Source of the DNA: Synechococcus sp. BIOS-E4-1 | GTDB taxonomy: Bacteria > Cyanobacteriota > Cyanobacteriia > PCC-6307 > Cyanobiaceae | Length of the DNA stretch: 64,000 nt | NCBI RefSeq assembly: GCF_014279995.1 | Contig: NZ_CP047935.1 | Location: 1,571,494 to 1,635,493 of the forward strand | Direction: 5' to 3' | Part shown: in pieces, positions 1 through 12,153 of the stretch | How the letters are laid out: the number at the start of each line of letters is the position of its first letter | Position numbering within the stretch: position 1 is the first letter of the stretch | Translations under genes and position numbers: made by a program | Notes under the pieces: model-generated | Told to the model about the DNA's origin: nothing | Databases searched by the model: none | The model's input: the letters and a program-made list of their open reading frames with translations, nothing else

Positions 1-132
1 TCGAAACATACGACTTTGCTCCCGCACAAACTGTCCGAAAAGGTCCTGAAACCGAACCTCGACGGACGGTCGCCCCACTTCCATGCGTGATCCAGCGGGA
101 ATAGAACGAAAAGGTCCCACTCGGAGACACCC

Positions 133-402
133 ATGACTCAAGAACAACTCAAGGCATTCATCGCCAAAGTTCAAGCCGATACTTCACTGCAGGAACAGCT
201 CAAGGCAGAAGGTGCAGACCCTGTTGCTATTGCCAAAGCTGCTGGTTTCGCGATTAGCACAGAAGACTTAAAAGCAAATCCCCAAGACTTGTCTCAGAGA
301 GACCTTGAAAGTGCAGCTGGTGGAGCTAACTCCTGCGATATCATGACTCACCAAGTCTGGGATTCCTATATGGGAACCTGTTTTATTTGTAATAAGCACT
401 AA
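133..402 (+). CDS. procA: Prochlorosin-type lanthipeptide precursor 1 (Nif11 leader)
   Basis: This is an 89-residue precursor peptide. Residues 1-64 form a Nif11-type leader (start MTQEQLKAFI) ending in the double-glycine site SAAGG. Residues 65-89 form the core, with Cys68, Cys83 and Cys86 and acceptor Ser/Thr at 67, 72, 78 and 82. In this family a promiscuous LanM-type synthetase dehydrates the Ser/Thr and joins them to Cys as thioether rings, and a C39-type transporter-protease cuts after GG. No such enzyme is encoded in this window. It is the most divergent leader of the left group and, unlike the other units, has no copy of the shared upstream element in view. Confidence 0.93.
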   Translation: MTQEQLKAFIAKVQADTSLQEQLKAEGADPVAIAKAAGFAISTEDLKANPQDLSQRDLESAAGGANSCDIMTHQVWDSYMGTCFICNKH

Positions 403-440
403 ATATGTGTGGTGAATGTGTTATGTGAGCCTACTCATCA

Positions 441-470
441 AAGCCTCTGCGTTGACAGGGGCTTATTATT
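441..470 (+). terminator. Rho-independent-like terminator after precursor 1
   Basis: An inverted repeat (AAGCCTCTG, short loop, CAGGGGCTT) is followed by the T-rich ATTATT. It lies about 40 bases after the stop of precursor 1 and just before the first copy of the shared 55-bp element. Confidence 0.6.
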
Positions 471-472
471 GC

Positions 473-527
473 TTCAATCTCGCCAATAATCCCACAAATC
501 AGCCTTCAATACCTGGCACGATTGAGC
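473..527 (+). repeat. procA intergenic element, copy R1
   Basis: This is the first copy of an element of about 55 bp found between the precursor genes, with the core CCTGGCACGATTGAGC. It matches the reverse complement of 9049-9103 at 54 of 55 positions by eye; the only difference is A versus G just before CCTGGCAC. It sits between the terminator of precursor 1 and the promoter of precursor 2. Confidence 0.85.
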
Positions 528-550
528 GCAGTAAGTATTAGCCAAAGACG

Positions 551-575
551 CTGCAGTAGACCGTTGTTATGACTG
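551..575 (+). promoter_or_regulatory. Conserved promoter box of precursor 2
   Basis: The block CTGCAGTAGACCGTTGTTAT and the following GACTGCTGAA recur, with small changes, ahead of precursors 3 and 5. The TTATGA/TATAAC hexamer sits 20-30 bases before the ATG and is a plausible -10. Its conservation suggests that each precursor has its own promoter. Confidence 0.5.
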
Positions 576-594
576 CTGAACAGACCTGATACCC

Positions 595-819
595 ATGTCC
601 CTAGAACAACTCAAGGCATTCCTCGCCAAGGTCAAAGGTGATTCCAATCTTCAGGAGAAACTAAAAGAAGCTAAGTCACCTGAAGATGTTGTAGGCATTG
701 CTAAAGAGCACGGCCACGAATTCACTGCTGATAAGGTCACTGAACTCAGTGAAGAGGAACTAGAAGGCGTGGCTGGTGGCCAGATGTCTTTATCGGACTG
801 GAAGTGTGTCCATAACTAA
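595..819 (+). CDS. procA: Prochlorosin-type lanthipeptide precursor 2
   Basis: This 74-residue precursor has a Nif11-type leader at residues 1-62, with EHGHEF in the middle and EELEGVAGG at the end. The core is short, residues 63-74 (QMSLSDWKCVHN). It holds a single Cys71 with Ser65 and Ser67, so at most one thioether ring can form, between Cys71 and one of the two serines. The leader is close to those of precursors 3 and 4, which suggests tandem duplication followed by core change. It has its own promoter box at 551-575. Confidence 0.9.
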   Translation: MSLEQLKAFLAKVKGDSNLQEKLKEAKSPEDVVGIAKEHGHEFTADKVTELSEEELEGVAGGQMSLSDWKCVHN

Positions 820-915
820 ACCTACGTAAAGAACATAAGAAACTAAACAACAGGCTGCAGTTGTGTCCATAACTTTTCTCCTCGGCTTCAAAACTTACAC
901 ACTCAAAGCCTCTCC

Positions 916-936
916 AGCAGACTGTTGCTATAACTG
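916..936 (+). promoter_or_regulatory. Conserved promoter box of precursor 3
   Basis: CAGCAGACTGTTGCTATAAC followed by TGCTGAA matches the box before precursor 2. TATAAC at 929-934 is a good -10, about 22 bases before the ATG at 956. The 55-bp element itself is not clearly present in this spacer. Confidence 0.5.
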
Positions 937-955
937 CTGAAAGGACCTACTACTC

Positions 956-1207
956 ATGTCAGAAGAACAACTCAAAGCCTTTCTAGAGAAGGTCAAAGCA
1001 GACACAAGCCTTCAGGAAAAGCTGAAAGAAGCTAGCGAATCAGTATGTATAACAAACCTTGCTAAGGAACATGGTCACGAATTCTCTTCAGACACATATG
1101 AAAAACTCAGCGAAGAGGAGCTAGAAAGTTTGTCAGGTGGTGCTAATACGCCCAATCTCTGCTGTTGCACAGCTGCCACATTCAAAGTCGGCTATTCTGG
1201 TTTTTAA
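956..1207 (+). CDS. procA: Prochlorosin-type lanthipeptide precursor 3, Cys-Cys-Cys core
   Basis: This 83-residue precursor has a leader at residues 1-62, ending ELESLSGG, and a core at 63-83. The core has three adjacent cysteines (69-71) with Thr65 before them and Thr72, Thr75 and Ser81 after. The leader carries its own Cys31, which is unusual beside its neighbours. Three adjacent Cys would force very small or overlapping rings, or leave thiols free for disulfides. The stop is only 10 bases before the start of the broken precursor 4, so the two are probably co-transcribed. Confidence 0.88.
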   Translation: MSEEQLKAFLEKVKADTSLQEKLKEASESVCITNLAKEHGHEFSSDTYEKLSEEELESLSGGANTPNLCCCTAATFKVGYSGF

Positions 1208-1217
1208 AAAACATCTC

Positions 1218-1478
1218 ATGTCAGAAGAACAACTCAAAGCCTTCCTGGAGAAGGTCAAAGGCGACAAAAGTCTTCAAGACAAACTAAAGGCAGTAAAGAC
1301 TCCTGAAGACGTCGTAGGGATCGCTAAGGAGCACGGTCATGAATTCACTGCTGATAATATCGCTGAACTCAGTTAAGAGGAACTAGAAGGCTTGGCTGGC
1401 AGAGGTTTACCATCTCTTTGGACTGCCTGTAACCTCAGGTTGTGTAGGAGATTTACTGACCCTCCTCCGGGCTCCTGA
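1218..1478 (+). pseudogene. procA: Broken prochlorosin precursor 4 (in-frame stop in leader)
   Basis: Translation starts with MSEEQLKAFLEKVKGDKSLQ and follows the leader of precursor 2 closely. A TAA at 1374-1376 replaces the Glu codon at position 53 (LS-stop-EELEGLAG). The same frame then continues, with the double glycine changed to GR, into a core of about 24 residues with two Cys, stopping at TGA 1476-1478. The preserved frame after the stop suggests a recent single-base nonsense change. No separate promoter is seen; it lies 10 bases after precursor 3. Confidence 0.85.
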
Positions 1479-1522
1479 TTCTACTTATCAAACACCCTGC
1501 CGTCGTAGTGGCTTTTTATTAC

Positions 1523-1598
1523 TTCAACAGTCTGAATAATCCCATAAATTAGCCTCCAATACCTGGCACGATTGAGCGTAGTAACCATTAGTTAAAGG
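1523..1598 (+). repeat. procA intergenic element, copy R2, at the left island edge
   Basis: This diverged copy shares AATACCTGGCACGATTGAGCG with R1 and stays similar beyond it (GTAGTAACCATTAG against CAGTAAGTATTAG) to about 1598, where similarity stops abruptly. At R1 a promoter and precursor follow; here the island sequence begins. This marks the probable left junction. Confidence 0.75.
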
Positions 1599-1754
1599 CA
1601 ATTCACAGTCGCTGACAGGGTGGTGAAGGCGCATCCCCCAAAATGACCAAAGATCCTCAATGACGGACCACTGGTGGTCGGTATGCGCACACTCTTGCGC
1701 ACAGCGTTGCAGAAACTCAGTCAGTAACTGGTGGACCCGTTGCTTACGAAGCAA
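1524..1754 (-). other. In-frame continuation of the 1755-2282 gene past a TGA
   Basis: This 76-residue frame opens with TTG directly after the TGA that ends the neighbour at 1755-2282 and is in the same frame. It could be a separate coupled gene, but it reads more simply as the C-terminal part of one longer protein cut by a nonsense codon. Its last 15 or so residues are encoded by the reverse strand of repeat R2, so the natural C-terminus has been replaced by repeat sequence. I recognise no family. Confidence 0.45.
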
Positions 1755-2282
1755 TCAAACGTCGATTGCCTGCTGATTCCACTGTTCTGCAGAGAGCTTG
1801 CCCTGAGCATCGCCCTGCTGGATGAAATCCTTCACGACATTGACCTGCATCGCCTGGACGCCTGCATCAGGGCTGAGCTGATTGTTCAACTGGCGAGCAC
1901 GGCGATCGTGATGCGTTGAGAGTGCGCGGAGCAGAGCTGGATCGACACCAGGCTCGTACGTGGTCTTCACGGTGGTGCGCCCCATGGCGTCGGTGACTGT
2001 TTCGGTGACGGTGCGTCCGTGTTGGCGTTGCACCGCAATCTGCTCGCGTAATTCCCGCTTAGACAGATTCCAGCGCTCTTCGCTGACTGCCATCCGCTCT
2101 TCGAGCGTCAGCTGATTGATCGGGTGCGCCTTGGCTGATTGCTTGATGAATTGGCTCACCCTGGCCTGGGTTATCTCCAACTCCGCAGAGATTGCAAATT
2201 GCGGGGCATCGTTCAGATGTAATTGACAATCACGATTGCGCTTAATTTTGGCTTGTCTTCTCTGCTCAATCGATGCAGCCAC
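1755..2282 (-). CDS. HTH protein of the island, possibly small-terminase-like
   Basis: This 175-residue basic protein has a helix-turn-helix-like stretch near residues 30-48 (ISAELEITQARVSQFIKQ) and a charged helical middle. Size, HTH and position at the end of the island's - strand row would fit a phage or satellite small terminase subunit, but I see no diagnostic motif and this is an inference. The frame continues past its TGA into 1524-1754, so the protein may be truncated. The nearest upstream gene on this strand is the broken ATPase, after a 347-base gap holding direct and inverted repeats. Confidence 0.55.
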   Translation of the reverse strand: MAASIEQRRQAKIKRNRDCQLHLNDAPQFAISAELEITQARVSQFIKQSAKAHPINQLTLEERMAVSEERWNLSKRELREQIAVQRQHGRTVTETVTDAMGRTTVKTTYEPGVDPALLRALSTHHDRRARQLNNQLSPDAGVQAMQVNVVKDFIQQGDAQGKLSAEQWNQQAIDV

Positions 2283-2629
2283 GATGTTACTAACTCTAAG
2301 CCTTTCAAAAATTATATGACGTCATAAATAGATGCGGCAAAACTCTTTTGTTCACCCTGCGCAGGGGGAGGGGGACACATGGGGCTATGTGTAGCGGGGA
2401 AATCGGGTAAATATGGCTGAGAGGCGCTGCAAACACTGAAAAAGAGGGTTCATCTGAGTCGGGAAAAGTGTTGGGATAGCCGGGAAAGTGGAATTATGTT
2501 TTCCCGATTGCTTCCCGATGTTTTCCTGTGGTTTTCCCGATAGGTCTATAAGTAAAAAGCTTGTTATAATGAGGGTTTATAAAGATATTTTCCCTTTCTC
2601 CCGATACATAGGTAGGGGGTGTGGGTCCC
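2283..2629. repeat. Iteron-like TTTTCCCGAT repeats in the island spacer
   Basis: This spacer has no gene. It contains short repeats in both directions: CGGGAAAAG near 2460 and CGGGAAAG near 2481, then TTTTCCCGAT at 2499-2508, TTCCCGAT at 2512-2519, TTTTCCCGAT at 2532-2541 and CTCCCGAT near 2599. A TATAAT lies at 2565-2570. Closely spaced repeats of one motif next to a replication-type ATPase resemble a plasmid or satellite origin with initiator-binding sites. That role is an inference. Confidence 0.45.
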
Positions 2630-3905
2630 CTATTTCATCATCCGATCAATTGCGAGTTTGCCTCTATGCGTGAGATGCCATGAGCTGCCGGATTTATTGA
2701 TGAATTGGCGCTGTCTATGCGTCGTGAGGTTGTTTGAAACGGTGGCTGGAGCGATTGTTGGATTCAGGTTTTTAATTGCATGCGTGGTGGTTGCAGTTTC
2801 GAGCCCTTCAAGATCAGAAATGGAGATGAGGAGTTGATCGGCGCAGTTTGTGATGACCTCGCCTTCAACGACTTGAAAGCCGTCATCTGAGAGGCGGTAG
2901 AGAAACTCTCTGGATTGATACCCACGGAGCTTGTGAGCGATCCAGCGAACGCACTTAGGGCGATCTTCTGAAGAGGGCTCAACGCGCAGCTCGTGGACGG
3001 CGTAGGGGATCTGATTGACGTTCTGGTTTCCACCTGCCCCGCTAATGCCTTTCCCTTTTGTGTTGCCGGATGGGTGGTGAAGGTAGAGAGCTGCAGTGTT
3101 GGCCGATGAGTGCTTGAAGGAAGCGCACGACGGTGCCGACTGGGCCGATACCGAAATCAATGCCCGCACGTTCCAAGACGGCTTTCCAAGAATCAAGGAC
3201 CACAAGGGCTTAGTCATTTGATTCCAGCTCTTCTTTCAGCTCGCAGAGATTGGATGGAGAGCAGGACCAAGCGCCAGTACCAGCTTCCTGATCAGCACCC
3301 CAGAAAACGCAGCCTTTTTCCCATCGAAGATCGTTGGCGATGCCGAAATCTTCAGCAGTGTTTTGCCACATCTCATAGGCACCATCACCGCCGTCAGAGC
3401 CAATCCAAAGGACTTTGCCTTTGATTTCAGAGGAGATGTCGTAATCAAGGAATGACTTGCCACTGATGACACACCAAGCCATCGCGACTGCTGCAGTTGT
3501 TTTGCCAACTCCGCCTGGGCTAAACAGCAGCGCATCGTGTTTCCAAGGCAGGAACCCATCAATGAGCATCTGCTGGCGTTCGCCTTCTCGTGACTGATTG
3601 GCGTGACGGTTGCGGCGCTTGCCTGAATGGTGCTGGCTGATCGATAGGTTCCAGCGATCGGCAAGAGCTTCGAGCACTCGGCCTTCTATGTCCTGACGTT
3701 GAACTCTGCGGCAGGTGAGTTCAGAGATGATTGCCATCTCCTTGTTCCAGGTATCGATACTGCGGAGCCTGAGGTCTAGTAGCTCATCAACTTTCCGCTC
3801 GATGAATTGATCAAGCGGGAGATCTTCATCAGCAACCTCTGGAACTAGTTCAACAGGTGAGATCCCGTAAACCTTGGCCAGATCTGAATCTGGAGAGAGT
3901 GTCAT
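2630..3905 (-). pseudogene. Broken RepA/RecA-like AAA ATPase of the island
   Basis: Translation starts at ATG 3905 (MTLSPDSDLAKVYGISP), overlapping the stop of the upstream frame as TAATG. A Walker A motif SPGGVGKTTAA lies around residue 130. A TAA at 3210-3212 stops the frame after ELESND, but the same frame goes on with ALVVLDSWKAVLERAGID, a Walker B-like strand. Near 3091-3100 a one-base shift then moves to the frame encoding LYLHHPSGNTKGKGISG and a C-terminal domain ending at 2630. The intact ancestor would be an RSF1010 RepA-like or AAA_25 helicase of about 420 residues. Two lesions make it a pseudogene. Confidence 0.75.
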
Positions 3906-4306
3906 TAGGTTGCCTCCAGCAGTTCTTGAACAGCCGCGGGGCAAGGAAGACCGAGTTCGTTCTGTTGAAACTGTCTGAGATCTTCTGCGATATAGGCGAT
4001 GGATTTTAGCTGCGCTTCAACGCGTAGGCGATGCAGCTGTGAGAGGTCGTCGTGATCCCTCCAGATGGTCCTGAGGTGTGGTCGAAGAGCTGCTGCTTTG
4101 GCCTGTGCGTCTGATCCGGCTGCGCAGGCGGATTGGAATTGATTAGGGGTGCAGGTGTAGAGGTCGGGAATGTTCCACGCCTCGTCGTAGGCATCGTGAA
4201 ATTGATCAAGGATGTGCGCCCATTGAGAGCGCTTGGTCTGGCTGGATAGAAGTTCCTGCGTAGTGGTAGGGGTTTGGAGGCGTTGACCCCTAGTCAGCTC
4301 CTTTCT
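3905..4306 (-). other. Open frame of unknown function without canonical start
   Basis: A frame of 133 codons is open between TAG 4307-4309 and TAA 3905-3907. Its product contains QWAHILDQFHDAYDEAW and ends VQELLEAT, rich in charged helices. Its stop overlaps the ATG of the ATPase (TAATG) and its 5' end overlaps the stop of the upstream gene, as expected inside an operon. No ATG, GTG or TTG lies in frame; a CTG at 4297 is the only near-start. It may use a rare start or have lost it. I recognise no family. Confidence 0.45.
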
Positions 4307-4512
4307 CTATGGGGCATGAAGACTGCGGCCATGCCGCTGAACCCGCCTTTGTGGTGAATGAATGCCCATTGCGCCCCGCTGATGGTGATGGTGTCGCCTG
4401 GGCGTAGATCAGTGCCGGTATGGCAGAGGACAACTTCATCGTTGAATCTGCAATCAGCGTCTTTGACCCTGGAACAAACGGGGCAGGGTTGATTGTGCCC
4501 TGATGATTTCAC
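4294..4512 (-). CDS. Small zinc-ribbon protein, primase N-terminus-like
   Basis: This 72-residue protein has CPVC at residues 10-13, a further Cys in DADCRFND and LCHTGTD. The spacing resembles the CHC2-type zinc-binding domain at the front of phage and satellite primases, here as a stand-alone domain. Its start overlaps the stop of the upstream gene (ATGA), and it precedes the frame leading to the AAA ATPase. A zinc-ribbon plus ATPase pair would fit a satellite replication module. The primase link is inferred from motif and context. Confidence 0.6.
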   Translation of the reverse strand: MKSSGHNQPCPVCSRVKDADCRFNDEVVLCHTGTDLRPGDTITISGAQWAFIHHKGGFSGMAAVFMPHRERS

Positions 4513-4742
4513 TCACCCGCCTCCCAGGTATCAAGTTGCTGGATGATAGTTGTGCCGCGTTGCTTTGCGATCTGTCTGATGGCGCAGAGCAAAGCAGCGA
4601 ATTGAAGATCGTTCTGCACGTCTGCTTGAAAGTCGTATTCAGGAGGCAGCGGGAGCGGTTCTGCAAACCGTGCTGCAGCTGCTTGTGTGACCGATTGAAT
4701 GTGTTGGGTGTCGGTTGACTGCCGACCTCGGATAGAGTTCAT
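4509..4742 (-). CDS. Island hypothetical protein, 77 aa
   Basis: I do not recognise this short acidic to neutral protein. It has a helical middle (FAALLCAIRQIAKQRGTTII) and no clear DNA-binding motif. Its stop overlaps the start of the zinc-ribbon gene by four bases (ATGA), so it belongs to the same operon. Confidence 0.55.
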   Translation of the reverse strand: MNSIRGRQSTDTQHIQSVTQAAAARFAEPLPLPPEYDFQADVQNDLQFAALLCAIRQIAKQRGTTIIQQLDTWEAGE

Positions 4743-4800
4743 TTGTAGAAAGCACGTTGTCTGAAGACCGCTGAGGGTGTGGAGACCCGAGGCGTTTTTT

Positions 4801-5094
4801 TCATAGTTGTGTAAAAGGCTTAAAACCCCATGCTTGCAGGTACTCGTAAACCGCTTGGCGGATGACGGTGCTGATGTCGGAGTTGTTTTGCCTGGCGATT
4901 GTTCCGAGGTGAGCGAACATCGGGCGAGGCATTCGAACCATGGAGCTACGATCTTTCACGCCGCCAAAACGGCACTCTTGATAGATGTATGCCTTGTGAT
5001 CCGTGGGGGTCTGTAGAGCGTTCATGATCGCAATGTAGAACTGCTGATAGGGAGTCCCAACCCCCCAATCCGTGAGTTTCCGTATACCAAACAC
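4801..5094 (-). CDS. Ribbon-helix-helix-like DNA-binding protein
   Basis: The C-terminal half of this 97-residue protein, SMVRMPRPMFAHLGTIARQ followed by DISTVIRQAVYEYLQAWG, has the pattern of an Arc/CopG/MetJ fold: a short strand and then two helices. Such proteins usually repress their own operon or control copy number on mobile elements. A second start at MNALQTP is possible. It stands apart from the next gene by a 58-base spacer and may have its own promoter. Confidence 0.6.
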   Translation of the reverse strand: MFGIRKLTDWGVGTPYQQFYIAIMNALQTPTDHKAYIYQECRFGGVKDRSSMVRMPRPMFAHLGTIARQNNSDISTVIRQAVYEYLQAWGFKPFTQL

Positions 5095-5152
5095 CTGCTG
5101 ACATTTGATGGCAGCTGTTAATGGACTTACGGGAAAATTAGGGTAAAAATAC

Positions 5153-5359
5153 CTACCCTTTTTTCTGATTGTTCAGGTGGTTAGTGAGGGCTGTCTCGTA
5201 TTCATTGGCGCGATTACGGCAATCAATCGCCAGTTCAAGGTGATTCAAACCACCCCAGAAACCAGCCCGCAATGATTCCCACCTTTGCCCCGTTGTGAGA
5301 ACGGTGGCGGTGTCTTCTTTGGCTTTGCCAACGACACGAGAGATGCGACTTGGCATCAA
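5153..5359 (-). CDS. Island hypothetical protein, 68 aa
   Basis: This is a small basic protein of unknown family. Its start overlaps the stop of the upstream gene by four bases (ATGA), which supports real translation as part of the 5153-5969 operon. Confidence 0.5.
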   Translation of the reverse strand: MMPSRISRVVGKAKEDTATVLTTGQRWESLRAGFWGGLNHLELAIDCRNRANEYETALTNHLNNQKKG

Positions 5360-5655
5360 TTGCCCTCCAGCGCTTCGAGGCGCATGGAGACCGTTGTGGT
5401 TTGCACCTTGAACGTCTCTTTCAGGTCTTTAACAATTTCCAGTAGGCATTCGAAGTTTTCATTCGCCTTTTCAGCTGTTTGCCTGTGTGAATTGGAGAAG
5501 AAAGCCGTTGTTGCCATTGCCATGGCGATCATTGGAATGACCTCATTGATGCCGTTCTCTTCGACAGCCTTGGTCAGTTCGTTCCTCAACTTCTCGGAGT
5601 AAGCCTGCATCTCATCGCTGGTGGATGGGAGGGTGCTCAGATCGAAGTCAGCCAT
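5356..5655 (-). CDS. Island hypothetical protein with helical/coiled-coil character
   Basis: This 99-residue protein has a short hydrophobic patch (VIPMIAMAMATTAFF) and long flanking amphipathic helices (ENFECLLEIVKDLKETFKV). It may be membrane-attached or a coiled coil. The family is unknown. It overlaps its neighbours at both ends: four bases with the downstream gene and one base with the upstream gene. Confidence 0.55.
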   Translation of the reverse strand: MADFDLSTLPSTSDEMQAYSEKLRNELTKAVEENGINEVIPMIAMAMATTAFFSNSHRQTAEKANENFECLLEIVKDLKETFKVQTTTVSMRLEALEGN

Positions 5656-5969
5656 CAGCTCTGCACCTCTGCGATCAGTTGATCCAGATGCGGGGCGTCG
5701 TAGGTCTCGACAGCATTTCTGCGTGTCGTTAGCTCTCTTTGACGGCGCTGATCCTCTTCCTTAGCTGCAGCAATCGTCAGCTCAATTAGGTGCTTGCGGA
5801 TCGCAGCGATGTCGTAATGCACTGGGCCATTGGGTTTGCCAGTGGCGAAGATCCAATGATCACCAGGCAGCAGTTTGCGCTCACGGCGCATGAGTCGAAG
5901 GGTGCTTTGTGCGATACCAAGAAGCTCTGAAGCTTCCTGCTCGCGCACCCATTCAGGTGCGGTTTTCAT
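5655..5969 (-). CDS. Excisionase/MerR-like HTH protein
   Basis: This 104-residue protein begins with a short basic region and the pattern WVREQEASELLGIAQSTLRL followed by MRRERKLLPGDHW. That matches the winged-helix HTH of excisionase-like (HTH_17) proteins. On mobile elements such proteins direct excision or repress the integrase. No tyrosine recombinase is found in the window, so its partner seems lost or lies elsewhere. It begins nine bases after the upstream gene. Confidence 0.65.
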   Translation of the reverse strand: MKTAPEWVREQEASELLGIAQSTLRLMRRERKLLPGDHWIFATGKPNGPVHYDIAAIRKHLIELTIAAAKEEDQRRQRELTTRRNAVETYDAPHLDQLIAEVQS

Positions 5970-5978
5970 TTGCGGGCT

Positions 5979-6221
5979 CTAGATCAGCCCCTTGGCTCTC
6001 AACACTGCAGCGCGAAGACCTTTCAATTCAGACCAGCGTTGAACCGCTGCTTCTTTCGAAGCAAACGGACGCCAGTCATCATCAGCAATCTTGCGATCAA
6101 TAACTGAAACCACACGTTCAATCTCAGCTCGATCACTTGGATGGGCGAGCTTGATTGTGTGGCCGTTGACTACGACCTGCGCGGAAGCTGATTTAGAGAA
6201 ACGGTCCTGCTTGCGTGCCAT
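5979..6221 (-). CDS. Island hypothetical protein, about 80 aa
   Basis: This basic protein starts MARKQDRFSKSASAQVVVNG; an extra MQ upstream (from 6227) is possible. Its family is unknown. It is the first gene of the island's - strand row and is followed nine bases later by the excisionase-like gene. A TTTGCACAA site of the repeated set upstream lies right at its start, so it is a candidate for repression. Confidence 0.5.
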   Translation of the reverse strand: MARKQDRFSKSASAQVVVNGHTIKLAHPSDRAEIERVVSVIDRKIADDDWRPFASKEAAVQRWSELKGLRAAVLRAKGLI

Positions 6222-6222
6222 T

Positions 6223-6482
6223 TGCACAAGGGATAAACAGAAACCGACTCATCAGCCCGCAAACGGATGTAAGCAGTACGACCCGAAAAACGGGGAATAG
6301 CCAGAGGATCTGTGGGCTCTTAGGCGATGCGCTGCCAAGTCCCGCGACTATTTCATTCGGTGGCAACAAGAAGTTGCTGGGCCAATCTTCATCCGCAGGC
6401 GTAATCCTGTCAACAGGTGATCAGAAATATGTGTGCAAAAACCGCTATATGTGGTGCCCGGTTGCACACCGTTTGCACACAC
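6223..6482. promoter_or_regulatory. Operator-like TTGCACAC repeats ahead of the island operon
   Basis: The spacer between tRNA-Pro and the first island gene contains TTTGCACAA near 6223, TGTGTGCAAA near 6430 (reverse orientation), GTTGCACACC near 6461 and GTTTGCACACAC near 6470. The reverse and forward copies make a palindrome-like array. The position is right for repressor operators or a replication or excision control site. No protein can be assigned to it. Confidence 0.45.
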
Positions 6483-6510
6483 CCCGTAAGGTCAATCGCT
6501 GAGAAACCAG

Positions 6511-6584
6511 TCGGGGCGACAGGATTCGAACCTGCGACCTAGTGCTCCCAAAGCACCCGCGCTACCAAACTGCGCCACGCCCCG
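6511..6584 (-). tRNA. tRNA-Pro (anticodon TGG)
   Basis: On the - strand the sequence folds as a 74-base tRNA. The seven-pair acceptor stem is CGGGGCG/CGCCCCG, the anticodon loop is TTTGGGA, and the T arm is GGTTCGAATCC. No CCA is encoded. The island's - strand genes lie directly on its 3' side, the usual side for tRNA-directed integration. I found no second copy of its 3' end that could be the other attachment site. Confidence 0.95.
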
Positions 6585-7033
6585 TTACCTGCATATAGTA
6601 GGGCCTGACGGGGATGTCGCCAAAACCATCTGCTGCAGAGGGTTTCGCTCTCGTGTCAGAAGTGGTCAAGAACCGCCATCTGCAAGCTTTTTGTCGCAGC
6701 TTTGTCGCTAGCTCACAAATTTTTTCACTAATTGTCTTTGGCTTGGCGTAGCCATTTCCCTGACTGGATTCTGGGTCTCTGAACCAGCTAAGTTCAACAG
6801 CCTCCCCCGCATAAAGGGTGATGGAGCAGAAATTATTTAGCAGATTGAGCCTGATTCCCCGAACTGCTCTGAGACGAGGTTGGATTGCATCTATAACCCT
6901 GCTTTCTCTTGTTTGCTCGTTCTTTCTATCTAAGCTTGACAATGATAGAAAAGCGTATGAATTGAAAAATACTAAGATTTTTATCCTGAAAGTGTTAGCT
7001 TTAAATCTATCACACGGGAATGAAGTTGGCCAT
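6585..7033. other. Gene-free spacer between tRNA-Pro and the kinase gene
   Basis: These 449 bases hold no coding frame that I trust. The open frame at 6562-6942 runs through the tRNA and has no recognisable domain. The part near 6930-7030 is A+T-rich. The tRNA-Pro promoter should be here, but no clear -35/-10 pair stands out. Confidence 0.5.
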
Positions 7034-8116
7034 TTATAAGATCTCAGAGAGATTCAATTCCACTGATGCTTCTATATGGCGAAAGATAAAGCATTCGGCC
7101 AACTGTGCTTCCTTGGCGTTCTTGAAGTTAGGTCCACCCAGCTCTGCAAAAGCCTTGATCGGAGCTGATAGACATGCAAGAGAAGCCAGTCGAACATCAC
7201 TATACGCTTCAGAAAAGGAATAATTTTTCACTCCTAATGAAACTAAACGTGAGTGCCAGTGTGAAACAAGATCCTTAAAGTGGCCGTGCCTTTCAGCGGG
7301 GGGCTCGCTACCAAGAATTAAAAAAGCGACGTCTATTGCAGCAGCACTAATGGTGACTGTCTGCCAATCAATGATGAGAATACTAGGATTATTCTGATCA
7401 TTGTTGTCGATCAATAAGTTGTCTGCTCTCAGATCTCCATGGACGATTGTCCGTGGACATTTTTGGAGTCGACTAAAAATCTCATCATGACGCATGACAT
7501 ATTCATCTAACAAGGTTACTGCTTCTTGTCCAATCCGTAGCCCGTAACATTCTTTGAGGTTTGTCCACAAAGGTTGAGGATCCACACGAAACCAGAAGTC
7601 ATCGGTTGGAAGCCATGGGTAAGAATATTGATCGCAAGCCTGCCAGCAATCAGCATGCACAGAAGCAATACTTGAAAGTGATGCTTTTACTCCCTGATTA
7701 TTTAGCCCATAAACCTGATCACCATTTTTCATGTATGATAGATCCTCCATTAGAATCCAACCCTTTCCACCCTGCGAATACGAAGCGAAGATTTTGGGCA
7801 ATCGACCGTATATATGGGGGCTGATATGCCTATAAAATCCACTCTCTCTGTCGAAAGCCTTTAATCTTTCTCCAACTGAAAAAAACTCTGGTCGGTTTGT
7901 ATGTATTTTTAGAATGATAGATTCGGGCAAGCCTTCATTCTCTTCTGAATATCTTGGAATAATGCGAAAAATCCTAGAAAGAAACCCTGTAGACTCGCCA
8001 ATAGGCTCGAGTTTAAGATTAAGAATCACCTGATGATTAATAAAGCCTGACTTACGTAATACTGCTGTTAGCCATGAAGAAGTAATATTCAAGGGATTTT
8101 CAATTATTTGATTCAT
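7034..8116 (-). CDS. APH/ecdysteroid-kinase-like phosphotransferase
   Basis: This 360-residue protein has the aminoglycoside-phosphotransferase fold pattern: LKIHTNRPEFFSV near the N-lobe lysine, WILMEDLS at the hinge, the catalytic IVHGDLRADNLLID, and ILIIDWQTV as the metal-binding Asp. The order and long N-lobe resemble the ecdysteroid kinase-like/CHK group more than resistance kinases. The substrate is unknown; small alcohols or amino-sugars are usual. The gene is visibly richer in A+T than the core genes and stands alone between tRNA-Pro and a strip of pseudogenes, so it is probably an acquired cargo gene. Confidence 0.8.
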   Translation of the reverse strand: MNQIIENPLNITSSWLTAVLRKSGFINHQVILNLKLEPIGESTGFLSRIFRIIPRYSEENEGLPESIILKIHTNRPEFFSVGERLKAFDRESGFYRHISPHIYGRLPKIFASYSQGGKGWILMEDLSYMKNGDQVYGLNNQGVKASLSSIASVHADCWQACDQYSYPWLPTDDFWFRVDPQPLWTNLKECYGLRIGQEAVTLLDEYVMRHDEIFSRLQKCPRTIVHGDLRADNLLIDNNDQNNPSILIIDWQTVTISAAAIDVAFLILGSEPPAERHGHFKDLVSHWHSRLVSLGVKNYSFSEAYSDVRLASLACLSAPIKAFAELGGPNFKNAKEAQLAECFIFRHIEASVELNLSEIL

Positions 8117-8247
8117 GCTGCTGATGTATAAAATGTATAAACTTCAATTTTAAAACGGAACCATGATTTTTGGTAAAAACTGCTTATCTTGAATTTTTAG
8201 AGGTCTAAGTTATAATAATCCACTGTTCTATCGAGAGTGATAGGGCT

Positions 8248-8665
8248 TTGACGATTGCAAACAGCGCCATCGACGCAAGGTCAATTCGGCTACCGGGGAA
8301 AGTTATCGGAATGCAAGCCATCGTCAACGATCTGCTTGAGCGAACCAATGCCATGGCAGAAAGCTGCAAAGACTGGTGAACAGCTACAGCAGCAGTCACT
8401 GGCACTGCTGAAAAACAATTAAGAGCAGATCAACGGAAGTTTTGAGACGTATCGCCTAGCTCTGGCAGACCTGCAGCAGCAAACCAACGATGCAAGCCGT
8501 TCAGTCGGTGCTTTGAACACTGCTGCTCAGAGCAACCGAGAGCTGATCAAAAAAGCAGTCAACATCACAGAACAGGCGATCCGCATCGCTGGTCTAGAGG
8601 CAAAGAAGGCAGTCGCCGAGGTCATGGAAGACCTGCTCAGTAGCCTTTTTTGGCCCTGGAAGTGA
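8248..8665 (+). pseudogene. Broken coiled-coil protein gene
   Basis: The + strand frame starts near TTG 8248 and gives IVNDLLERTNAMAE. It then shifts within an A run near 8360 to KAAKTGEQLQQQSLALLKNN, meets TAA at 8420-8422, and continues in the same frame as EQINGSFETYRLALADLQQQ to FWPWK at TGA 8663. The heptad-rich, Gln-rich sequence suggests a phage structural or coiled-coil protein. It has at least two lesions. The family is unknown. Confidence 0.6.
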
Positions 8666-9019
8666 TGGGCATCAGTGAGCAACAGCAGGCGCTGCAGTTG
8701 AACACCGATGGGGTTGACCCCAACCGAGGCGTCTACTTGACCCGTGATATCTGCGCCGGGTGAATGACATCCACAGCGGCAAGTGCAACGCCAGAGGTGC
8801 CGACATTGAGCGACCGCTGCTTTGACCTTCAATGCACAAGAGCTACATCAACCCGATATTGGGGATTAGTGGCATGACTGAGGAGTCGGCCCGTGAGGAA
8901 GTGACTGGGGATTCCTGCAAGCCAAACGGTTCACCGGTGCTCGGGCGTCCTGGTGGATCGGGCTGCCGCTGAACGAGTATTGGCCGGAGTTGCTAGTTGA
9001 TTGCAGCCTTGATTACTAA
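8665..9019 (+). pseudogene. Broken small genes at the right island edge
   Basis: An ATG overlapping the previous TGA gives MGISEQQQALQLNTDGVDP, which reaches a stop at 8761, while another frame continues it as VNDIHSGKCNARGADIERPL. A following piece (MHKSYINPILGISGMTEES) also shifts frame near 8910 to give LQAKRFTGARASWWIGLPLN, ending at TAA 9017-9019. These look like two or three small phage-type genes decayed by frameshifts. They end 30 bases before element R3. Confidence 0.5.
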
Positions 9020-9048
9020 GCAAGCCCTGACTATCTCTGCTCAACTGT

Positions 9049-9103
9049 GCTCAATCGTGCCAGGCATTGAAGGCTGATTTGTGGGATTATTGGCGAGATT
9101 GAA
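9049..9103 (-). repeat. procA intergenic element, copy R3, at the right island edge
   Basis: Its reverse complement matches R1 (473-527) at 54 of 55 positions. It follows the terminator of precursor 5, where a further precursor would be expected, but the next sequence on that side is island DNA. R1 and R3 therefore form a long inverted repeat about 8.5 kb apart. Confidence 0.85.
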
Positions 9104-9110
9104 AAAATAA

Positions 9111-9134
9111 GAAGCCCCTGCAGTTGCAGGGGTT
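9111..9134 (-). terminator. Terminator of precursor 5
   Basis: On the - strand, ACCCCTGCAACTGCAGGGGC forms a strong hairpin followed by the T-rich TTCTTATTTTTTC. It lies about 70 bases after the stop of precursor 5. Confidence 0.75.
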
Positions 9135-9203
9135 TTGTGGGCGTAGGCTACATTGTAATAAAGGCACGATAAATAATATTAAAAATCAGGTAATAAGGCT
9201 TTT

Positions 9204-9443
9204 TTAGCACAAAGTCTGGTGGTGCTCGTCTGTGCAGCAGCCATAAAATGACCCGCCAGCAGCTGTACCTTCCAACTCCTCGTCTGAAATCTTGGTCCGA
9301 ACTTCATCAGCAGAAATACTAAACCCAGCCTCTTTCGCAATTGCAACTACTGCATCAGGATTAGCAGCTGCTTTAAGTTTCTCTTGCAAACTGTCGTCTC
9401 CCTGAACCTTCTCAATAAAGGCTTTCAACTGCTCTTCTGGCAT
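9204..9443 (-). CDS. procA: Prochlorosin-type lanthipeptide precursor 5
   Basis: This 79-residue precursor has a Nif11-type leader at residues 1-64, with AIAKEAGFSISADEV and ending EGTAAGG. The core at 65-79 (SFYGCCTDEHHQTLC) has Cys69, Cys70 and Cys79 with Ser65, Thr71 and Thr77. The spacing allows a small ring at Ser65-Cys69 and a C-terminal ring ending at Cys79, though ring pattern cannot be read from sequence. Its leader is closest to that of precursor 6. It has its own promoter and terminator. Confidence 0.92.
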   Translation of the reverse strand: MPEEQLKAFIEKVQGDDSLQEKLKAAANPDAVVAIAKEAGFSISADEVRTKISDEELEGTAAGGSFYGCCTDEHHQTLC

Positions 9444-9459
9444 GGGTATCAGGAGTCTT

Positions 9460-9490
9460 TAATGGTTATAGCAATGGTCTACTGCAGCGT
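9460..9490 (-). promoter_or_regulatory. Conserved promoter box of precursor 5
   Basis: On the - strand CTGCAGTAGACCATTGCTAT then AACCATTAAAGACTCC matches the boxes before precursors 2 and 3. TATAAC lies about 20 bases before the ATG. A similar TTGCTATAACCGTTAAAGAC precedes precursor 6 (about 9890-9910). Confidence 0.5.
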
Positions 9491-9510
9491 CTTAAGTTAA
9501 TACTTAATGT

Positions 9511-9566
9511 GCTCAATCGTGCCAGGTATTGAAGGCTGATTTGTGGGCTGTTTGGAGTGATTGTAG
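9511..9566 (-). repeat. procA intergenic element, copy R4
   Basis: The reverse complement carries AATACCTGGCACGATTGAGC and CCCACAAATCAGCCTTC as in R1; the distal part differs. It lies between the end of precursor 6 and the promoter of precursor 5. Confidence 0.75.
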
Positions 9567-9620
9567 AAATAAAAAATACCTGAGGTCGTAGGGGTTTTGG
9601 TTGGCTTACCCTGCCCGTCT

Positions 9621-9878
9621 TCAGTGTTGGGTACAGCATCGCAGACCAGTGTATTGGCACTTCGTATCGCACCACTCGTAAGAAGTAATACCACCAGCGG
9701 CGCTTTCCATCTCCTCATCTGTCAGTTCTGATCGAATCTCTTCAGCAGTAATTACAAAACCAGCATCCTTAGCAATAGTCACTACTGCATCGGGGTCTGC
9801 TGCGGCTTTGAGCTTCTCCTGAAGGCTGGTGTCGCCTTGAACCTTCTCCATAAAGGCTTTGAGTTGCTCTTCTGACAT
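9621..9878 (-). CDS. procA: Prochlorosin-type lanthipeptide precursor 6, four-cysteine core
   Basis: This 85-residue precursor has a leader at residues 1-63, ending EEMESAAGG. The core at 64-85 has four Cys (70, 74, 81, 82) and five acceptors (Thr65, Ser66, Thr72, Thr77, Thr83), the richest core in the array; three or four rings are conceivable. The leader is nearly that of precursor 5, while the core is unrelated. This is the usual picture for prochlorosins, where one enzyme modifies many cores. Confidence 0.92.
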   Translation of the reverse strand: MSEEQLKAFMEKVQGDTSLQEKLKAAADPDAVVTIAKDAGFVITAEEIRSELTDEEMESAAGGITSYEWCDTKCQYTGLRCCTQH

Positions 9879-9947
9879 GGGTTTCAGGAGTCTTTAACGG
9901 TTATAGCAACAACAACATGAAGTGTCTTTGGCTAACAATTACTGCAG

Positions 9948-10000
9948 TCAATCGTGCCAGGTATTGAATGCTGATTGATGGTCTTTTTGGGGTAATTGAA
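9948..10000 (-). repeat. procA intergenic element, copy R5
   Basis: This diverged copy (reverse strand TCAATACCTGGCACGATTGAC) lies between precursors 7 and 6. Its position relative to the terminator and the next promoter is the same as in R1 and R4. Confidence 0.65.
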
Positions 10001-10002
10001 GA

Positions 10003-10038
10003 AATAAAAACTCCCTTGAGGCGGCAGGGGCTTTTGAA
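10003..10038 (-). terminator. Terminator of precursor 7
   Basis: On the - strand, an AGCCCCTGCCGCCTCAAGGG hairpin-like sequence is followed by AGTTTTTATTTC. It lies about 50 bases after the stop of precursor 7 and immediately before R5. Confidence 0.5.
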
Positions 10039-10084
10039 GGAGTAACTTAGAGAGTGTCAGTACATAAATCCGTCACTATTTACA

Positions 10085-10360
10085 CTATAAATCTGACAGC
10101 GTATCGGGGCAGCAATACACAGAAAAGCAAGCGACGCTGTCGCTTTTCAGAGAGTCACCTACCCCAGCCGCACGTTCCAGCTCTGCGTTTGAAAGTTCTG
10201 ATTGCTGAGCGTTCTTCAAGTCGTCAGCAGAGATACTAAAACCAGCCTCTTTTGCAATCGCACAAACTCCATCAGAATTAGCAGCTGCTTTGAGCTTCTC
10301 CTGAAGGCTGGCGTCGCTTGTGAACTTTTCCAGGAATGCCTTAAGTTTTTCTTCTGACAT
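10085..10360 (-). CDS. procA: Prochlorosin-type lanthipeptide precursor 7, altered GG site
   Basis: This 91-residue precursor starts MSEEKLKAFLEKFTSDASLQ and has the Nif11 leader pattern. The double glycine is replaced by AAGVG (residues 64-68), and the leader has its own Cys33. The likely core, about 69-91, has Cys78, Cys83 and Cys84 and several Ser/Thr (70, 73, 75, 80, 87, 89). If the leader protease needs GG or GA, cleavage may be shifted or poor. It is the outermost gene of the right group. Confidence 0.88.
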   Translation of the reverse strand: MSEEKLKAFLEKFTSDASLQEKLKAAANSDGVCAIAKEAGFSISADDLKNAQQSELSNAELERAAGVGDSLKSDSVACFSVYCCPDTLSDL

Positions 10361-10909
10361 GAGATAGCCGCAAATACCGCAGTCACAGCACTGTTCTACT
10401 GCAGATTCTTTGGTTTGTAATTTCTGTTCTTATTTGTGCCAGCTATTGCAAGACGATTTAGGCTGTTATTTGAACCAATAAAGAAACAAAAAGCCCGCGC
10501 CATCTTAGCGAGGATTTGATTGTTAGACCTAGATGAATTCACTGCATCGACAGTATTCATCAATCCACTCTTATGCCCTCCAGGAATCGATGATCATTCC
10601 TCTTGAGATAGGTCGACCATTTTCATATGTTGGCTTTTAGCGTTTCCTGCCAGGTTTCTCTGTATCCCGCATCAGCGGCAGGTTTTGCTGCATCTTCTGG
10701 ATAAAAGGGCTTTAACTACTCGCCCTTTGCATGAGTTGTTTGCTTTTTATCAGAATTCAAGAAAAGCCTGATTTTGCTTCTGCCTGATTGATTTCCTCAA
10801 CTCCAGGAGCATCGTGATTGAGTGAAGTGCAATCAAATTGGTTTTGCTAAACGACTCAAATTCTTCATCTGGTCTCCAGGTCTAGTTTTTTTCCATTGAT
10901 GGATACGAT
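10361..10909. other. Gene-free spacer with degenerate element R6
   Basis: The part next to precursor 7 carries a CTGCAGTAGAACAGTGCTGTGA-like promoter box on the - strand (about 10375-10400) and a weak copy of the intergenic element at 10432-10495 (GTGCCAGCTATTGCAAGACG). I see no gene, RNA or clear repeat in the rest up to 10909. This is where the array meets the core genome. Confidence 0.5.
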
Positions 10910-11299
10910 TTAACTTGTACTTCTTGGAGTTTTGAGATGTCGATCCAGCAGTTCAGGAAGACGCTCAAAAAGATCCGGTTTGAAAACGTAGTCAACCGCA
11001 CCATTGTCCATTGATTCCTGCCGCTTGACATCGTCATTGAATGCTGTGACGACAAGGATCGGAACATTTTCTGTGCGCTTGTTTAGCTGTCGCAGACAAG
11101 TCAGCCCATCCATAACCGGCATCATCAGATCGATGAGGATCAGGTCAATCTCTTCTGCCTCCACGCACTCGAGTAATTCCTGACCGCTGCTGAAAGCGAC
11201 AGGGAGTACACCTTCATCCAGCAACTCTTCCGCGATCAGACTGCGAAGCCGCGGATCATCATCGACAAAAGCGACCCGTGGTTTTTCATCCATGGTCAA
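10910..11299 (-). CDS. Single-domain response regulator (receiver only)
   Basis: This 129-residue CheY-like receiver has no output domain. The acidic triad is DDD at residues 13-15, the phospho-acceptor is Asp57 (LILIDLMMP), and the switch Thr (VVTAF) and conserved Lys (YVFKPD) are present, so it should be phosphorylatable. No histidine kinase lies nearby. It is separated from the prochlorosin array by a 549-base spacer, and nothing in the sequence links the two. A start at the second Met (MDEKPRV) is equally possible. Confidence 0.88.
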   Translation of the reverse strand: MTMDEKPRVAFVDDDPRLRSLIAEELLDEGVLPVAFSSGQELLECVEAEEIDLILIDLMMPVMDGLTCLRQLNKRTENVPILVVTAFNDDVKRQESMDNGAVDYVFKPDLFERLPELLDRHLKTPRSTS

Positions 11300-11350
11300 C
11301 TCTGGTCAGATGTCCCAATCATCACTTGGGTCCCAGCGGTGATGGTGAAG

Positions 11351-11422
11351 TGGGTCGCCTGAGATTCGAACTCAGGACCAATCGGTTAAAAGCCGAGTGC
11401 TCTACCGCTGAGCTAGCGACCC
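11351..11422 (-). tRNA. tRNA-Lys (anticodon TTT)
   Basis: This is a 72-base tRNA on the - strand. The acceptor stem is GGGTCGC/GCGACCC, the anticodon loop is CTTTTAA, and the T arm is GAGTTCGAATCTC. No CCA is encoded. It lies 51 bases upstream of the receiver gene on the same strand. Confidence 0.95.
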
Positions 11423-11619
11423 TCACTTGAGCCGGAACAACCGATCCGGAACAGGCTGTGCCCTCAAGCACCCAAGAAAAATATCACCCTGACCCACCGT
11501 CGTCCACGAGCTCTCCAGAATGGAGGTCCGCTTGAATTGGCTTGATGATTTGATCTGATCTGGTCAGGCGTTGATCCCAACCGCTTGAATCGGCATTCCG
11601 AGTTCAGGACTGTGAGCTG

Positions 11620-12153
11620 ATGAATGGTTCGCCCAATCCAGAGCCGTTGAACATCGGTTCTCCAAGGATTGATCCTCAGGCCTGGGTTGCAGATAGTGCT
11701 GTTGTGATGGGAGATGTCGAGATCGCTGCAGGTGCAAGCCTTTGGCCGACTGCCGTGGCAAGGGGTGACATGTCAGCCATCGTGATCGGACCAGGCAGCA
11801 ATGTTCAGGATGGTGCCGTTCTTCACGGTGATCCTGGATCGCCGGTGTTGATCGGATCCGATGTCACGATCGGCCATCGCGCAGTGGTTCATGGAGCCAC
11901 CCTCGAAGACGGTTGTCTGGTTGGGATCGGAGCGATCGTTCTCAACGGTGTCACCGTTGGGGCAGGCGCGCTGGTTGCCGCCGGTGCAGTTGTGACACGT
12001 GATGTTCCACCCCGCAGCCTGGTAGCGGGTGTGCCCGCTCAGGTGAAGCGCGAACAGAGCGATTCAGCAGTGCTTGAACAGAAACAGCACGCAGTCCACT
12101 ACGCCCATCTGGCTGCCAATTGGGCTGAATTGCTGCAAAACCAAACGGACTGA
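11620..12153 (+). CDS. Gamma-carbonic-anhydrase-like hexapeptide protein (YrdA family)
   Basis: This 177-residue protein consists of left-handed beta-helix hexapeptide repeats (IGPGSNVQDGAVLHGD onward) and a C-terminal helix. The three metal-binding histidines of gamma carbonic anhydrases are present (His69 in VLHGD, His86 and His91 in IGHRAVVHG), with Arg48 and Asp50. The family binds zinc or iron; not all members hydrate CO2, so activity is uncertain. psbY follows 60 bases downstream. Confidence 0.88.
   Translation: MNGSPNPEPLNIGSPRIDPQAWVADSAVVMGDVEIAAGASLWPTAVARGDMSAIVIGPGSNVQDGAVLHGDPGSPVLIGSDVTIGHRAVVHGATLEDGCLVGIGAIVLNGVTVGAGALVAAGAVVTRDVPPRSLVAGVPAQVKREQSDSAVLEQKQHAVHYAHLAANWAELLQNQTD

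Follow-up and report, generated by a model that had tools for sequence, protein, structure and literature searches.

Why are two repeats of about 55 nt, lying 8.5 kb apart in opposite orientation, almost identical when other copies of the same repeat beside them have drifted? The question is raised by the left part of a window of 64,000 nt, the whole stretch of DNA that was analyzed here, which covers positions 1571494-1635493 of the single-contig 3.31-Mb genome of Synechococcus sp. BIOS-E4-1 (labelled G000; G000 coordinates up to 64,000 refer to the window and larger ones to the genome). Two groups of Nif11-type precursor genes on opposite strands lie there, together with copies of a repeat that we call R, and the near-identical copies R1 and R3 bound the segment between them. 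On balance, we favor the reading that R is the joint between precursor cassettes and lies in the zone of their exchange, which would proceed through a shared tract by either homologous recombination or gene conversion, and that the likeness of R1 and R3 arose by local conversion. The repeats and precursors concerned are as follows.

133-402, + strand: Nif11-type precursor 1, which heads the + group and has no R upstream; its cassette matches a different array site in the relative G028
473-527, + strand: R1, a copy of R with its core at 497-527; the start of precursor 2 lies 68 bp past its end
595-819, + strand: Nif11-type precursor 2
956-1207, + strand: Nif11-type precursor 3; R was not found between precursors 2 and 3
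1218-1376, + strand: precursor 4, truncated before the leader end by an in-frame TAA read from the sequence
1523-1577, + strand: R2, a drifted copy of R with its core at 1547-1577, array-terminal, at the edge of a degenerate island
8256-9048, - strand: module B1 and broken open reading frames (ORFs) beyond it
9049-9103, - strand: R3, a copy of R with its core at 9049-9079, array-terminal and followed by module B1 in place of a precursor
9204-9443, - strand: Nif11-type precursor, last in the - group
9511-9565, - strand: copy of R between precursors, core at 9511-9541
9621-9878, - strand: Nif11-type precursor
9946-10000, - strand: copy of R between precursors, core at 9946-9976
10085-10360, - strand: Nif11-type precursor, head of the - group, with a degenerate R upstream by eye

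R1 and the reverse complement of R3 agreed at 54 of 55 bases, as the initial annotation had claimed, and the sole difference was an A/G at position 511. The drift that it ascribed to the other copies in the window was likewise confirmed: R1 shared 49 of 55 bases with the copy whose core lies at 9511-9541 and 44 of 55 with the copy whose core lies at 9946-9976, and R2 agreed with R3 at 44 of 55. A weaker likeness between R1 and R3 extended to arms at 439-532 and 9044-9137 (94 nt, 87%) and then ended. On the 5' side it faded within the terminators, and on the 3' side it stopped a few bases past the core, where the leader of precursor 2 comes next after R1 and the unrelated module B1 after R3.

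R1 and R3 are two members of a family with a conserved core of 31 nt and variable flanks. The likeness is not due to chance, because the core pattern read backwards occurred zero times in the genome, and the pair is not unique. With up to three mismatches the core was found 77 times in G000, 50 times on one strand and 27 times on the other. With up to seven mismatches, the window together with 33 fetched stretches of G000 yielded 129 copies, with no copy dropped at the edges. These form 8256 pairs, of which three were identical at all 55 bases and four, R1/R3 among them, at 54. One repeat-family search scored 40 of its 153 candidates and hence gives a lower bound. Among 400 genomes of the bacterial family, sampled evenly from a larger group, the core (≤3 mismatches) was present in 12, all of them among the 31 genomes of one genus (including G000), and in 0 of the 369 others. 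An exact 21-mer retrieved 12 stretches from named records, all of marine Synechococcus (AG-679-A04, AG-679-C18, AG-673-A03, and UW105), in a search from which the window's own genome and records close to it may be missing, and one R pattern run against viral_contigs retrieved no stretch. The Nif11 leader domain PF07862 scored above the cut-off in all three window precursors scored, and G000 as a whole had at least 150 Nif11 matches (150 of 281 candidates scored).

The position of R was then compared across 204 Nif11-like genes, which include one visible duplicate (2724784/2724785) and, from the window, the first 16,000 bases. For the most part, R tags the 3' end of Nif11/prochlorosin-like precursor cassettes, because it stood upstream of only 2 of the 51 array-first genes, and among the 17 genes without neighbors it was upstream of none and downstream of 7. 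What follows R falls into mutually unrelated classes: a precursor leader, a longer leader of about 180-192 bp, module B1 (at R3), and others. The B1 region plus the core resembles what lies downstream of the R copy at genome position 1958479 (84.6%, 829 bp). Where a start codon was recognized, the distance from core to start was 67 bases in 58 of 81 copies, and some of the shorter distances are probably false starts.

To compare both sides of the repeat, 200 bp on each side of 209 copies were aligned (129 from G000, 57 from G028, 22 from G025, and 1 from G016), and pairs were called alike upstream at ≥78% over 120 nt and alike downstream at ≥80% over 140 nt. Only 2 of the 31 upstream-alike pairs (11 within and 20 between genomes) were also alike downstream, and only 2 of the 1328 downstream-alike pairs were alike upstream. 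This one-sided likeness places R within a zone of cassette exchange. The breakpoints could be followed in recent copies, the count being restricted to those in which one of three exact sub-words was present. A copy shared by 1957840-1958509 and 2489954-2490623 of G000 (96.6%, 670 bp) ended with the final core base, and the near-identical stretches at 439276/760136 and 1268393/1465317 started at its first base. Other pairs broke before or just after the terminator. Thus, the exchange zone is the terminator-R-leader tract and not a single base, and the scatter of breakpoints across the terminator, R, and the leader favors homologous recombination. If it acted through a shared tract, such recombination would account both for these breakpoints and for copies on both strands.

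In the mechanism that we propose, R follows the terminator of a precursor gene, and next comes one of several unrelated modules, either the 67-bp leader of the following precursor or an array-terminal module as at R3. The terminator-R-leader tract would be the common homologous sequence that lets precursor cassettes exchange, by homologous recombination, presumably of the RecA type, or by gene conversion. The 54/55 identity of R1 and R3 would then stem from local conversion of their common 24-nt 5' half rather than from inversion of the segment. Local conversion is a plausible source and appears the best reading of the likeness, because the exact 24-nt half occurred in 4 of the 129 copies and three of these lie at the window locus (post hoc P 0.0009). 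Gene conversion had been offered in the initial annotation beside a recent inversion. Two of the seven pairs at ≥54/55 were less than 10 kb apart, against 0.39 expected. An inverted pair within 10 kb reached 54/55 in 1.4% of 5000 permutations, a post hoc figure in which the close inverted pairs come nearly all from the window locus.

Comparison with relatives was carried out for 27 R clusters (18 of G028, 8 of G025, and 1 of G016), whose 9-kb flanks were mapped to G000. Both flanks mapped to a single G000 site in 6 of the 27, at four sites.

G028 C12:142-144k with 152-156k: G000 1813-1819k
G028 C12:345k with 360-361k: G000 window locus
G028 C4:17-26k: G000 1958-1991k
G028 C4:84.9k: G000 precursor site near 2049k

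The content of such a site can differ from its position. G028 C12:345-361k is the site of the window, yet precursor 1 with R1 matched a different array of that genome, C12:155.7-156.5k (91.6%, 788 bp, with about seven differences by eye in the first 330 bases), and in this match the 5' half of R1 was of another type. The backbone identity between G000 and G028 was 84-86% in the flanks and 88-93% in the island. The array at 1475-1480k of G025 occupies a site where G000 has none. A large rearrangement joining 1.27 Mb to 1.81 Mb of G000 was considered for G028 C12:142-156k and dropped, as both flanks map to 1813-1819k. Separately, G025 near 1487313 joins directly the flanks of a 19-kb G000 stretch (1397960-1417188) that holds a large precursor array.

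Some marine Synechococcus carry at least 100 different Nif11/prochlorosin-like precursors while their relatives carry few. A joint repeat present in part of one genus offers a directly testable route for reshuffling precursors and spreading them between array sites. More tentatively, R may be the joint of a genome-wide shuffling system that diversifies the precursors of natural products. In it, more than a hundred copies would allow precursor genes to be cut at the common 3' repeat and rejoined at other array sites, possibly aided by the recombinases encoded right beside R. The earlier idea that the repeats rearrange the precursor arrays is supported in one form, that of single cassettes apparently exchanged around R, and not supported in the form of a whole-segment inversion.

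Several results weigh against R as the joint of exchange or against local conversion. The core was absent (≤3 mismatches) from 19 of the 31 genomes of the genus. R did not stand 3' of every gene, being found there in 22 of 52 last genes and in 98 of 152 genes with a next gene, and degenerate copies below the threshold were seen by eye upstream of three array-first genes (1283268, 1581853, and 2502518), so the 3'-tag rule has exceptions. A single leader family of 116 copies dominated the downstream-alike pairs. As for conversion, the local tests were post hoc and not independent of each other, two further copies located elsewhere were one base away from the local 24-nt half, and pairs within 10 kb were on average identical at 37.2 of 55 bases, compared with 38.3 for the remaining pairs. 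Conserved array sites were seen at four places only. Several other clusters had missing, unmatched, or one-sided flanks in the sequence compared, and the flanks of at least six clusters lay at different places in G000, mostly through short or multicopy matches:

G028: C25:248.7k and C32:107k
G025: 815k, 2003k, 2257k, and 2265k

Inversion of the 8.5-kb segment through R1 and R3, either reversibly or once recently, was weighed with the help of the features that lie between the two precursor groups.

1664-6227, - strand: degenerate island adjoining tRNA-Pro, with an AAA_25/primase-like ORF and weak CopG-like and excisionase-like ORFs; three pieces are collinear in G028
6510-6584, - strand: tRNA-Pro(tgg), used as the marker of orientation
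7034-8116, - strand: EcKL/APH-like kinase

Near-identical inverted repeats at both ends (54/55), as in an invertible segment, were indeed found, and the two best matches of R1 among the 128 other copies were its inverted neighbors, R3 (54) and the copy at genome position 1568117 (53). Moreover, the locus was the only mixed-strand cluster among the 21 G000 clusters with at least two copies (elsewhere, G025 has two such clusters and G028 one). Both points count against our preferred reading, and the stretch 457-779, with R1 and precursor 2, was 87% identical to a same-locus stretch of G028 in the opposite relative orientation. However, the tRNA-Pro, which shares its strand with tRNA-Lys in G000, kept this orientation in all nine relatives that show both genes (G002, G008, G010, G012, G017, G022, G023, G025, and G028). 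The genus has 30 other genomes, and 12 of them contributed the 13 stretches sampled; G016 and G030 showed tRNA-Lys only, and the stretch of G005 was another locus. The tRNA-Pro, both flanks, and the island pieces 1664-2341, 3871-5358, and 5653-5951 were collinear between G028 and G000; the kinase had no match in G028, so the collinearity covers the island, the tRNA-Pro, and the flanks. A match of R1 that includes both its flanks lies elsewhere in G000 (1989093-1989217, 94.4%, 125 bp), and precursor 1 belongs to the + group yet sits outside R1-R3. No match to PF00239 or PF00589, i.e., no invertase gene at the segment, was found anywhere in the window. Both orientations were not observed among the relatives, each represented by one assembly per species, in which a minority orientation would not appear; reversible switching therefore stays compatible with these data. 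Taken together, we consider inversion of the whole segment, which the initial annotation had put forward, very unlikely. A smaller inversion, or an inverted insertion, of the + strand precursor group is possible, because this is the only mixed-strand cluster of G000. An 84-bp match at window position -1682 had suggested that a 3-kb block was inverted, a reading rejected since the element is multicopy and hence no marker. In G017 (C37:210-4749), a ppgk-orf-Fur block runs in the reverse direction with respect to tRNA-Pro and a response regulator, unlike in G028, G025, and G008, and the assembly may be the reason.

R might instead be the attachment site of a dedicated tyrosine or large serine recombinase that moves the cassettes, much like attC of integrons. 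R fits this by lying chiefly at the cassette's 3' end, and two unrelated recombinase-like ORFs adjoin R with B1: a 516-aa large serine recombinase (2805864-2807435, Resolvase plus zinc ribbon, Resolvase E 6.4e-29) ends about 90 bp from the core at 2807528, and a 362-aa ORF (1181735-1182865), which its motifs suggest to be tyrosine-recombinase-like, has its end some 110 bp away from the core at 1181592. Furthermore, seven of nine Phage_integrase matches (E ≤0.01) lay within 15 kb of R, a zone that makes up 24.7% of the genome (P 0.0013). But only five of the nine pass the Pfam cut-off, three of those close to R, and two weak matches lie next to each other. Only one of three Resolvase matches adjoins R, Pfam did not match the tyrosine-recombinase-like ORF of G000 and matched the related ORF of G025 only at E 0.056, and the window itself lacks both domains. 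The breakpoints are spread over several positions, before the terminator, after it, and at either core end. A dedicated recombinase thus seems unlikely to us. The tyrosine-recombinase-like ORFs of G000 and G025 (1039336-1040469) share 36% identity and lie near R copies, and relatives of them with stops or breaks were seen near 1954.7k and 1974k of G000. A further alternative is that R is a selected regulatory DNA or RNA element and the shuffling a by-product of gene duplication. The recurrent 67-base spacing to the start codon and the conservation of the core amid variable flanks agree with it, whereas 49 of 51 array-first genes had no R at the threshold used and the array-terminal copies precede no precursor directly. 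In addition, Rfam returned for window positions 1-12000 (E ≤0.1) only two tRNAs and one sub-threshold match. We consider a regulatory element improbable, at about the level of the segment inversion. R as a known RNA was also rejected, as no Rfam family besides the tRNAs exceeded the threshold in those 12,000 bases.

Cassette exchange through R has partial counterparts in known systems. Integron cassette arrays consist of genes with a 3' attC/VCR repeat, the repeats being many, similar, and mostly on one strand. The arrays described here likewise hold many similar repeats and run mostly on one strand, and many of their genes, though not all, are followed by a 3' repeat (22 of 52 last genes and 98 of 152 with a next gene). 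They differ in that no integrase platform was identified, array sites are many, the precursors have their own leaders, and exchange is not at one base, the breakpoints being scattered between a point ahead of the terminator and the end of the core in place of a one-base crossover. PF00589 matches are present in G000, none of them typed as an integron integrase. Short dispersed intergenic repeats of the REP/BIME and dRS3-like kinds can provide homology for conversion or rearrangement; R resembles them in being short, dispersed, and intergenic between coding units, but is associated with a single gene family, mostly on the 3' side of its members.

As far as the main text of PMC10783134 describes them, the prochlorosin precursors (procA/syncA) of marine Synechococcus and Prochlorococcus lie in tandem and scattered, with recombination genes nearby, and the Nif11-leader precursors here show the same arrangement. 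LanM-type synthetases are likewise shared with those expansions, G000 having three LanM-type dehydratase matches (PF13575), all elsewhere than in the window. The words "intergenic" and "repeat" have no occurrence in that main text (PMC10783134); a cassette-side repeat with exchange around it is described in the present analysis. A literature search turned up no paper announcing such a repeat, and a preprint on TnpAREP transposases may already describe R. This preprint, by Laurenceau et al. (bioRxiv), reportedly associates, by its title, precursor genes of the prochlorosin family with TnpAREP transposases. A link of this kind would fit G028, where both Y1_Tnp matches lie about 2 kb or less from an R copy. 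In contrast, the single Y1_Tnp match of G000 (2096494) is near no R copy found, and the counts do not track R: G021 has 10 matches and no R, the incomplete G016 has R and no Y1_Tnp, and in G025 (99% complete) 13 cores occur without any Y1_Tnp match, unlike a TnpAREP-type REP. The ends of R looked complementary by eye, on which no claim of a hairpin is based here.

Some minor observations concern the island and its surroundings. A 3' duplicate of the tRNA-Pro was sought as an attachment trace and rejected, as the 27-nt piece is present once in the window (≤3 mismatches). The decayed island itself (1664-6227) holds primase/helicase-like and excisionase-like ORFs and no integrase match. About 9 kb to the left of the window, an 86-aa frame (G000 1562364-1562621) carries a weak Phage_integrase match below the Pfam cut-off.

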